Assembly (NCBI GenBank): GCA_947479755.1
Contig: CANKAM010000004.1
Span: forward strand, 62,001 to 126,000
DNA length: 64,000 bases
Direction: 5' to 3'
Origin: Bacteroidota bacterium
GTDB lineage: Bacteria; Bacteroidota; Bacteroidia; SXHM01
How positions within the stretch are numbered: the stretch's first letter is position 1; every line of letters begins with the position of its first letter. A program made the position numbers and the translations under genes. A model generated the notes under the pieces. It had not been told where the DNA came from and did no database searches. It worked only from the letters and a program-made list of their open reading frames with translations. Positions 22,517 to 25,908 of this stretch are shown here, one piece after another.

Positions 22517-22613
22517 CGTCATGCTGAACTTGTTTCAGCATCTGCGCAATGTCTGGGGGATATTGAGCCAGCCTGTGCTGATGATAAGACACTGAAACAA
22601 GTTCAGGGTGACG
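22517..22613. repeat. REPIN-like inverted repeat doublet, family B, copy 1
   Basis: Left hairpin ATGCTGAA-N5-TTCAGCAT (22521-22541) and right hairpin ACACTGAA-N5-TTCAGGGT (22589-22609) are separated by 47 bases. The outer ends CGTCA...TGACG and the loops CTTGT/ACAAG are inverted relative to each other, so the doublet also folds as one long hairpin. It lies between convergent stop codons. Confidence 0.85.
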
Positions 22614-23052: not shown

Positions 23053-23093
23053 CTTTGCGAACTTTGCGCATTCTTTGCGAACTTTGCGGTAAA
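23053..23093. repeat. GCAAAG-rich intergenic repeat, copy 3 (inverted)
   Basis: CTTTGCGAACTTTGCG, CATT, then CTTTGCGAACTTTGCGGTAAA: a 16-base unit repeated twice in tandem. On the minus strand it begins TTTACCGCAAAG, as copies 1 and 4 do. It ends nine bases before the nnr start codon. Confidence 0.7.
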
Positions 23094-23101
23094 AGTAACA
23101 A

Positions 23102-24640
23102 ATGAAAATCCTGTCCACTTCTCAAATCCGCGAAGCCGATGCTTATACCATAGCGCACGAGACCATCGCCTCCATTGATTTGATGGAGCGGGCGGCAAGT
23201 GCCTGTGCAAATTGGATTGCAGAACGATATTCAGACGGTGCTGCGTTTTACATCTTTTGCGGAACAGGCAACAATGGCGGTGACGGATTAGCTATTGCAC
23301 GCATTCTTAACAGTACCAAATACTATAATATTAAGGTGTTTGTTATCCGCCATAGCGATAAAACCTCACCTGATTTCTCAACCAATCTGTCACGATTAGC
23401 TAAAAGCAAAAACATTGACATCACAGATATTTCAGATACTTCACAACTACCCGAAATACCTGAAAACATTGTTGTAATTGATGCTTTGCTCGGCAGTGGT
23501 TTATCCAAATCCTTAACAGGTTTGCTTGCCGATGTTGTTGAACACATCAACAAGTCCCAGGCAGCAATCATTATTTCAATAGACATCCCAACAGGGCTTT
23601 TTGCAGAAGACAATTCCGCTAATACCGGTAAAGTAATTCAGGCTGATTACACACTAACATTTGAATTGCCGAAACTTGCTTTTCTCTTCCCTGAAAATGC
23701 TCCATTTGTTGGCGAATGGCAGGTATTACCGATTGGATTGAGCAAAGAATTTATTGCACAAACAGCAACCGATTATCATTACATCACAGAAGAAAATATT
23801 TTACCTCTTCTGAAAAAGAGAAATAAATTTTCGCACAAAGGAACCTACGGTCATGCCCTGATTATTGCAGGCAGCAAAGGCAAGATGGGTGCAGCCGTAA
23901 TGGCTGCCAAAAGTGCATTGCGTGCAGGTGCAGGATTAGCCAGTGCTCATATTCCTAATTGCGGCTACACGGTGTTACAATCTACTGTCCCAGAAGCCAT
24001 GTGCGAAACAGATGCAAACGAAACACATATTTCAGGAAGAATAAAAATAGGGAGCTGCAATGCAGTTGCAGTTGGTCCCGGCATCGGCAATGATCCTGAC
24101 ACAGTTAGAGCATTGAAACTATTGATACAGGATACCACCATAAACATGGTGTATGATGCCGATGCACTCAACATGATTGCTGAAAATAAAACATGGTTTG
24201 CGTTTATGCGTGGCGGAAGTATTCTTACTCCGCATCCAAAAGAGTTTGAACGTCTCTTTGGTAAGAGCGACAACAGTTTTGAACGTTTAAAACTGCAACG
24301 CGAAATGGCTATGAAATATGGCTTTTACATTGTTTTAAAAGGTGCGCATACAAGCATTGCATTCCCTGACGGAAGCGTTTATTTCAATTCAACCGGCAAT
24401 CCCGGAATGGCAACCGGTGGCAGCGGTGATGTGCTTACCGGCATTATCTGCGGTCTTCTTGCACAAGGCTACAAACCGCATGAAGCAAGTCTGGTAGGTG
24501 TTTACTTACACGGAGTTGCAGGCGACATTGCAGCAGAAAAAATGAGTGAAGAGGGGATGACGGCAATGGATATTATTGATGGGATGGGAGAAGCGTGGAA
24601 GAGGGTAGGTAGTAAAAACATAGGCAGCTTGTCGCACTGA
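23102..24640 (+). CDS. nnr: Bifunctional NAD(P)HX epimerase / ADP-dependent dehydratase
   Basis: A 512-residue fusion that repairs hydrated NADH/NADPH. Residues 1-215 are the YjeF_N epimerase domain with the GTGNNGGDGL loop. Residues 225-505 are the ribokinase-like dehydratase with HKGTYGHALIIAGS, DADALNMI, LTPHPKEFERL and the catalytic GGSGDVLTGIICGLLAQG. The start ATG follows the GCAAAG repeat. The 3' end runs into the left REP hairpin of the GIY-YIG gene: the hairpin begins six bases before the nnr stop codon ends. Confidence 0.95.
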   Translation: MKILSTSQIREADAYTIAHETIASIDLMERAASACANWIAERYSDGAAFYIFCGTGNNGGDGLAIARILNSTKYYNIKVFVIRHSDKTSPDFSTNLSRLAKSKNIDITDISDTSQLPEIPENIVVIDALLGSGLSKSLTGLLADVVEHINKSQAAIIISIDIPTGLFAEDNSANTGKVIQADYTLTFELPKLAFLFPENAPFVGEWQVLPIGLSKEFIAQTATDYHYITEENILPLLKKRNKFSHKGTYGHALIIAGSKGKMGAAVMAAKSALRAGAGLASAHIPNCGYTVLQSTVPEAMCETDANETHISGRIKIGSCNAVAVGPGIGNDPDTVRALKLLIQDTTINMVYDADALNMIAENKTWFAFMRGGSILTPHPKEFERLFGKSDNSFERLKLQREMAMKYGFYIVLKGAHTSIAFPDGSVYFNSTGNPGMATGGSGDVLTGIICGLLAQGYKPHEASLVGVYLHGVAGDIAAEKMSEEGMTAMDIIDGMGEAWKRVGSKNIGSLSH

Positions 24641-24654
24641 GCCTGTCGAAGTGC
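24634..24654 (+). repeat. REP-like hairpin, family C, copy 1 (left of GIY-YIG gene)
   Basis: GCACT, loop GAGCCTGTCGA, AGTGC, preceded by GTC. It overlaps the nnr stop codon and lies nine bases before the GIY-YIG ATG. An inverted copy and a same-orientation copy are on the other side of that gene (24961-25010). The core CTGAGCCTGTCGAAG is a variant of the widespread CTGAGCTTGTCGAAG repeat. Confidence 0.8.
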
Positions 24655-24662
24655 TATTAATT

Positions 24663-24983
24663 ATGAAACAAATGTTTGCTTACATCCTTGAATGTTCTGA
24701 CAAATCCTATTACACAGGAGTTACAAATGATGTTGAAAGAAGAGTTGCGGAACATAATGAAGGAACAGATAAAGAAAGTTACACATTTAAAAGGCGACCT
24801 GTAAAGCTTTTATTTCATACTGTTTTTAATGATCCATTACAGGCAATCCAATTTGAAAAACAATTAAAAGGCTGGTCAAGGAAAAAGAAGGAAGCAATTA
24901 TTAATGGTAACTGGGATTTATTACCTGACCTCTCAAAATCTAAAACTCCGATTAATAAAGACCCTTCGACAAGCTCAGGGTGA
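24663..24983 (+). CDS. GIY-YIG single-domain nuclease, REP-flanked
   Basis: A 106-residue UvrC/YhbQ-type GIY-YIG endonuclease domain with nothing attached. The first strand is AYILEC (Tyr7) and the second SYYTG (Tyr17, Gly19); catalytic Arg27 is in NDVERRVAEHNEG and the metal-binding Glu65 is in AIQFEKQLKGW. I start at ATG 24663; a GTG at 24651 lies inside the left REP hairpin. The last eight codons (KDPSTSSG) and the stop are contributed by the right REP hairpin. Family members cut DNA in repair, restriction or homing. The gene's position between inverted REPs suggests a link to those repeats. Confidence 0.88.
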   Translation: MKQMFAYILECSDKSYYTGVTNDVERRVAEHNEGTDKESYTFKRRPVKLLFHTVFNDPLQAIQFEKQLKGWSRKKKEAIINGNWDLLPDLSKSKTPINKDPSTSSG

Positions 24984-25010
24984 CGTGGTCAGGCTGAGCC
25001 TGTCTAAGCC
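24961..25010 (-). repeat. REP-like hairpins, family C, copies 2 (inverted) and 3
   Basis: Copy 2 is ACCCT, loop TCGACAAGCTC, AGGGT, then GAC (24961-24984), inverted relative to copy 1. Copy 3 is GTCA-GGCT, loop GAGCCTGTCTA, AGCC (to 25010), in the same orientation as copy 1. Copies 2 and 3 are eight bases apart and point away from each other. They lie between the convergent stops of the GIY-YIG and aminotransferase genes; copy 2 contains the GIY-YIG stop. Confidence 0.82.
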
Positions 25011-25017
25011 AGTTCCT

Positions 25018-25848
25018 CTAAGCATTCAGCAAAGCAACAAACTCCTTCGCCTTTTCGTTCCCAAATGTTTTGCCTTCACAACTCCCCACCCAACGAATAC
25101 CGCGCGAAGCGCTGGTGAGCCAGAGTTCATCGGCAGTTTTAAGAAAGCTTTCTTCTATAGTTGTTTCTTTCAATTCAATACCTGCTTGTTTAGCAACGGA
25201 AAGCATTACCATTCGCATCACGCCATCTAAACAGGCCTCGGAAAGAAGAGGCGTATAAATCACATTGTCCTTCACCACAAAAACATTGGCGTTGCTGCCT
25301 TCCGCAATCCGTCCGGCATCATTTAACAAAATGCAATCATCCAGTTTTTGTTCTTTGGTAAATTCCGAAGCAAGGACATACAACAAAGCATTACCGCTTT
25401 TCAGTTCCGACAATTTATTAAACGGCTTTTTAATTTCTCTAAAAACACCAATAGCAATTCCTTCTTCATTCAAAACATATTCAGTATCAAAAATGGCTTC
25501 CGCCTCTAAAATCCACGAAGCAGCATTGCTTTCACTTTGATAAAACCCTGAACCATCACGATAAAATGTAAGTCTTGCCCTACCACCCTGCTCTATTCCG
25601 TTTGCATTTGACAGTTGCTCCACTGCAGAAGAAAAATAGTCAGCAGTAAAATGCTCAGGCTTCTGCATCTTCAATGCTGCTAGAGTTTTATCTAATCGTT
25701 TGCAGTGCTCCTCAACAAACAAAGCCTTGCCATTTTTAATGCGAATTGATTCAAAGAATGAATCACCATAACGGAACGCACGGTGTGCATGACTGAACAA
25801 TAAAGTTCCCGTTGGCAGAAGGTTTCCGTTATGTAAAATATAAGTCAT
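25018..25848 (-). CDS. Class IV aminotransferase (BCAT / aminodeoxychorismate lyase-like)
   Basis: A 276-residue PLP enzyme of fold type IV. FSHAHRAFRYGDSFFESIRI is the typical N-terminal block, the PLP lysine is expected in LSELKSGNALLY, and NDAGRIAEGSNANVF is the second cofactor block. In Bacteroidota such proteins are annotated either as branched-chain aminotransferase or as PabC (4-amino-4-deoxychorismate lyase, folate pathway); I cannot decide between them. The ATG at 25848 is preferred to a TTG three codons upstream. It is alone on this strand, convergent with the GIY-YIG gene. Confidence 0.85.
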   Translation of the reverse strand: MTYILHNGNLLPTGTLLFSHAHRAFRYGDSFFESIRIKNGKALFVEEHCKRLDKTLAALKMQKPEHFTADYFSSAVEQLSNANGIEQGGRARLTFYRDGSGFYQSESNAASWILEAEAIFDTEYVLNEEGIAIGVFREIKKPFNKLSELKSGNALLYVLASEFTKEQKLDDCILLNDAGRIAEGSNANVFVVKDNVIYTPLLSEACLDGVMRMVMLSVAKQAGIELKETTIEESFLKTADELWLTSASRGIRWVGSCEGKTFGNEKAKEFVALLNA

Positions 25849-25908
25849 CTGCTGCAATAATACGGCTTTTGAATTTTACCTATTTTCGCAACCACTAAAC
25901 AAGACAAA

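Follow-up and report, generated by a model that had tools for sequence, protein, structure and literature searches.

The gene for a RAYT (TnpA-REP) nuclease occurs, in the REPtron, as a single copy between inverted, multi-copy REPs, and the protein and its repeats vary together. The locus that we describe here has the same layout and shows the same co-variation. The resemblance does not extend to the enzyme or to the tag: RAYTs have the HUH fold and a chemistry unrelated to that of GIY-YIG nucleases, and their REPs are tagged by GTAG, whereas the tag here is GTC. A second system, Ssn, was reportedly described by Chenal et al. in Nature Communications in 2025 as a family of site-specific nucleases that act on single strands and consist of one GIY-YIG domain; the Ssn enzyme of Neisseria meningitidis is said to act on genomic repeats and to modulate natural transformation, and its homologues to cut sequences of their own. 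The third point of comparison is a class of repeats. CGTC-tagged REPs have an unpaired (C/T)GTC tag at one end, a stem of 8–9 bp and a loop of 4–5 bases, and most, but not all, of their tails fit CCA (PMC3733652). Neisseria dRS3 repeats are listed among them, as CGTC-1. These REPs 'apparently lack a dedicated transposase'; no RAYT was found with such repeats at its flanks, and GIY-YIG genes go unmentioned (Di Nocera et al. 2013, PMC3733652).

The window, the whole stretch of 64,000 nucleotides of Bacteroidota DNA that was analysed, contains a GIY-YIG nuclease gene at positions 24663–24983 of the forward strand. It starts with ATG and encodes 106 amino acids, comprising a single GIY-YIG domain of ~100 residues with the catalytic residues intact. 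PF01541 (GIY-YIG) matches the protein with an E value of 9.5e-18 and is its sole domain match in a profile search, the HUH tyrosine (Y1) transposase domain being absent. Y7, Y17, G19, R27, H31 and E65 are invariant among the 32 relatives compared, and the AlphaFold2 model has the GIY-YIG fold (mean pLDDT 87.5). By sequence and fold together, the closest solved structures are the UPF0213 proteins 1zg2 and 1ywl, for which we know of no role or link to repeats; Slx1 is also among the closest folds to the model. PADLOC gave no match for the gene, and a defence role was rejected on that ground. To the left lies nnr (NAD(P)H-hydrate epimerase/dehydratase; 23102–24640, forward strand), and to the right, convergent with the nuclease gene, a class IV aminotransferase gene (25018–25857, reverse strand). 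Directly upstream of nnr, at 23053–23088, are two identical 16-base direct repeats, CTTTGCGAACTTTGCG, 20 bases apart.

The nuclease gene is bounded by palindromes. The motif CTGAGCnTGTCGAAG occurs at 24637–24651 (forward), inverted at 24964–24978 (reverse), and once more, with one mismatch, at 24994–25008 (forward); dinucleotide shuffles of the window had 0.24 matches on average and, in 100 shuffles, never as many as three. The initial annotation had placed a 106-residue GIY-YIG gene between inverted hairpins, with a third copy oriented as the first, and this arrangement is confirmed. The left palindrome (24631–24654, forward) consists of a GTC tag (24631–24633) directed away from the nuclease gene, the stem GCACT/AGTGC (24634–24638/24650–24654), the core GAG...CGA and the loop CCTGT; as had been noticed earlier, it covers the stop codon of nnr (TGA, 24638–24640). 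The right palindrome (24961–24984, reverse; tag GTC 24982–24984) has the stem ACCCT/AGGGT and the loop CTTGT, and its stretch from 24961 to 24981 contributes most of an Asp codon, the residues P-S-T-S-S-G that follow, and the TGA of the nuclease gene. It does, then, supply the stop codon as first proposed, but the eight terminal residues credited to it are in fact seven codons plus the stop. Ends encoded by the repeat (PSTGSG or PSTSSG) occur also in two Nitrospinota relatives, and of 44 bracketed relatives 13 have the downstream copy overlapping the ORF end or directly adjoining it, so that a gene end supplied by the repeat is a recurrent detail. The third palindrome (24988–25011, forward) stands head-to-head with the right one, their tags three bases apart; it has CTA where CGA is expected, and a sister species keeps the intact CGA.

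The repeat unit is thus GTC, a variable 5-bp stem, GAG, the loop CnTGT, CGA, and the returning strand of the stem. Three of the five stem pairs are free and covary; GAG and CGA pair only if sheared G-A pairs are counted, and the loop has five bases. Its own genome contains 40 exact copies, and none of a reversed control pattern. GTC, which lies outside the search motif, stands at the same place before it in all 30 copies whose flanks were read, preceded by T in 67% of them. Covariation was assessed within the genome, in place of an earlier count across phyla that took in 12 repeats only: the three free stem positions are 87% Watson–Crick, whereas 5000 shuffles gave at most 63%. Single hairpins are weak (DNA folding, −2.6 to −4.7 kcal/mol) and not clearly better than shuffles, and support for the folded form therefore comes from the stem covariation. 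Exact pairs of repeats are oriented head-to-head in eight cases and tail-to-tail in three. No match to Rfam was found, and an Rfam RNA was rejected as the identity of the repeat. The same genome also contains 136 copies of a sister repeat type with the core CTGAACTTGTTTCAG; a dimer of this type, tags outward and with no gene inside, occupies 22517–22613 of the window.

CGTC-tagged REPs share with the window repeat the unpaired GTC tag, short stem and 5-base loop, the predominance of head-to-head dimers and the lack of association with RAYTs. They differ in having a plain 8–9 bp stem, where the window repeat has a 5-bp Watson–Crick stem and the GAG/CGA core, and in having a CCA tail, itself no strict criterion, where that of the window repeat is T-rich. 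Because the unpaired GTC tag is invariant and the stem covaries, the window palindromes fit the CGTC-tagged REP superfamily.

Palindromes of this general kind accompany related genes far beyond the window. Public genomes, scanned with the protein family after repeat-encoded tails had been left out of the query, yielded 80 loci distributed over many phyla. Of the 76 relatives that could be scored, 45 lie between GTCA-headed inverted repeats, as do 10 of the 1009 other ORFs in these loci (odds ratio 145, Fisher p 3e-49); the absence of such an enrichment would, according to the initial annotation, have refuted its proposal. The tags point outward at 35 of the 45 bracketed loci and inward at 10. 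A first hairpin scanner, which required an 8-base stem after the tag and was superseded by inverted-repeat scoring, detected 18 of 75 loci (24%, versus 0.7%). Since the bracketed relatives come from more than a dozen bacterial phyla, the earlier idea of an analogous, non-RAYT REP system survives as to the nuclease dedicated to repeats and the REPtron-like layout, but not as to its confinement to Bacteroidota. At two further loci (L036, G000:C16:37375-37590; L047, G004:C21:3863-4069), GIY-YIG genes of another subfamily adjoin tRNA-Leu and tRNA-Met genes, and on its far side each has a direct repeat, 32–34 bases long, of a portion of the tRNA; these look like insertions targeted to tRNA genes.

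Protein and repeat also correspond in kind. Within the genus, the closest homologues are each flanked by their own palindrome type (CTGAGCGTAGTCGAAG in G002, TTCGAGCGTAGTCGAGAA in G006), and CTGAACTTGTTTCAG palindromes flank GIY-YIG relatives in G005 and others. Protein identity and repeat similarity correlate even across phyla (r 0.195, a value reached by 1 of 2000 permutations), and the window repeat type goes with its protein clade in Nitrospinota, Nitrospirota, Ignavibacteriota and Bacteroidota. Were the palindromes terminators between convergent genes, and bracketing a matter of where small genes land, one would expect sites such as that of the window and several others, which are convergent or 3′-intergenic and contain a palindrome of one type or another. 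That reading would leave unexplained why related genes are favoured over other ORFs, why the repeats on the two sides are of matching type, and why clade and repeat type go together across phyla; the enrichment and the clade link disfavour terminators, and we consider them very unlikely.

RAYT-type Y1 transposase domains are present in 7/7 genomes of the genus, and the repeats might for that reason be taken for ordinary, RAYT-mobilised REPs to which the GIY-YIG gene is adjacent by chance. In the genus, however, a PF01797 search matched 15 loci, and these repeats occur near none of them; Di Nocera et al. 2013 (PMC3733652) likewise saw no RAYT with CGTC repeats at its flanks; and it is at GIY-YIG genes that the repeats are enriched, 145-fold by odds. 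RAYT mobilization is disfavoured accordingly, and we give it almost no credence.

The family of enzymes that the window protein most resembles is presumably Ssn, to which we take its relatives to belong as well. As with Ssn, a small protein with one GIY-YIG domain is paired with a repeat of which the genome has many copies, and the candidate cognate sequence is repeated in the genome and adjoins the gene, a feature that Ssn is also said to have. One relative (L049, G002:C43:285-518) is bracketed by dRS3-like palindromes, CGTCATTCCC...GGGAAT (ATTCCC/GGGAAT), although it sits on a GC-rich contig of 3.6 kb that is possibly a contaminant. The window gene is best read as a new member of the Ssn kind with its cognate repeat. 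Ssn nucleases are reported to cut single-stranded rather than double-stranded DNA, at a specific site; for the window protein such cleavage is predicted. What is new here is the link to CGTC REPs, the matching of repeat and protein across phyla, and the turnover of the repeats considered below.

Copy number follows the gene. Equal abundance without the gene was the second refuting outcome named by the initial annotation, but the repeat is more abundant where the gene is present: in a sample of 198 Bacteroidota genomes, not phylogenetically independent, at least three copies of the window repeat occur in 16 of 40 genomes with the clade versus 18 of 158 without it (p 8e-5, shared ancestry ignored). 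Where the protein is at least 60% identical, all four other genomes carry the window repeat (7–46 copies), and the sister repeat reaches three copies in only one of the four. In the Bacteroidota sample, the window and sister types are found together no more often than chance would predict. The looser clade correlates weakly with the sister repeat too (odds ratio 3.3), so that part of the copy-number signal is general. Fewer than three exact copies are present in 24 of the 40 genomes with the clade, and four genomes (G105, G128, G136 and G184) have 25–42 copies without an intact clade gene; in G128 a repeat copy adjoins one side of a broken GIY-YIG gene. Among the genomes of the 50 loci that were fetched, copy number was not decisive, because these hold several GIY-YIG genes of different type. 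Another genome (G210:C18:37967-39150) contains a pair of GIY-YIG copies that score identically, are separated by 908 bp and are interspersed with repeats of the window type; the gene–repeat unit has probably been duplicated in tandem there.

Comparison of orthologous sites reveals how the repeats come and go. Among congeneric species, the junction between nnr and the aminotransferase gene holds the gene unit in two, nothing in one, a gene-less CTGAAC-type dimer in another and a gene-less CTGAGCGTAG-type dimer in yet another. In G001 (L140) the junction is occupied by CCACAGAGCCACGAAGACACAGAG, an inverted repeat unrelated to the others; palindromes of several kinds are thus attracted to this site or kept there. 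Seven further repeat sites were compared with G004, few genomes being compared by site. The same repeat is shared at one (L013); at L020 a dimer of ~73 bp is absent from a clean empty site; at L005 the dimer is absent within a diverged intergenic stretch; L009, L015 and L019 have another GTCA-headed repeat type at the orthologous site, and L024 has unrelated sequence. The DNA flanking the turned-over sites is mostly about 88–97% identical. Given this mixture of occupied, replaced and empty sites, the repeats are gained and lost quickly between congeneric species. The mobility suggested by the initial annotation is supported to this extent, that turnover is seen between species; that the nuclease causes it is our inference.

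Turnover of this kind might also be expected if palindrome, gene and palindrome were a selfish element moving as one unit, of which the gene-less dimers were shortened copies. The outward tags at most loci accord with this, as do the outward, gene-less dimers at the nnr/aminotransferase site in two sister species, another sister being empty, and the clean absence of the ~73-bp dimer at an orthologous site. Yet the window's own genome has no dispersed identical copies bearing the gene, the one other genome with two equal-scoring copies has them close together, and no clear target-site duplication accompanies the one clean empty site, L020. We regard such an element as unlikely.

The explanation that we favour, and think likely, is that the gene encodes a single-domain, sequence-specific GIY-YIG nuclease, that the bracketing palindrome, with its GTC tag, variable stem of 5 bp, GAG...CGA core and CnTGT loop, is the cognate site of this nuclease, and that nicking of this site in single-stranded DNA drives turnover of the repeats. 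The enzyme would bind the palindrome as folded single-stranded DNA, in replication gaps or in DNA imported by transformation, and would nick it near the tag; repair or recombination of the nicked strand could then lead to gain, loss or exchange of repeats. Judged from sequence, the CGTC REP class, reported in 2013 to be without a dedicated partner, very probably has one in this enzyme, and mobilization of the repeats by the enzyme is plausible. It is also quite possible, if somewhat less so, that the nuclease recognizes the repeats without moving them, acting on single-stranded DNA, whether incoming or gapped, and thereby tuning recombination or natural transformation, while the repeats are spread by unrelated copying or kept as marks for recombination or uptake. 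The reported action of N. meningitidis Ssn on genome repeats, and its modulation of natural transformation, speak for this, and so does the gene itself, which occurs at the same locus in two species and, unlike a transposon, has no dispersed close copies in its own genome. A nuclease that does not move repeats would, however, require separate explanations for copy number following the gene and for site turnover between close species. Our favoured explanation, of a nuclease whose nick drives turnover, can be carried further, and we do so tentatively: GIY-YIG nucleases may be the missing mobilizers of CGTC REPs, a second and unrelated system of REP transposition spread over many phyla, in which the unit with the gene would be autonomous and the gene-less dimers dependent on it.

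These findings name a candidate enzyme for the CGTC-tagged REPs, and they offer a rule by which protein clade can be matched to the core and loop of a repeat. The sister genomes, with their occupied, replaced and empty sites, make the relation between enzyme and repeat testable at the bench, and enzyme–repeat pairs from across the phyla would constitute a catalogue of sequence-specific single-strand cutters.
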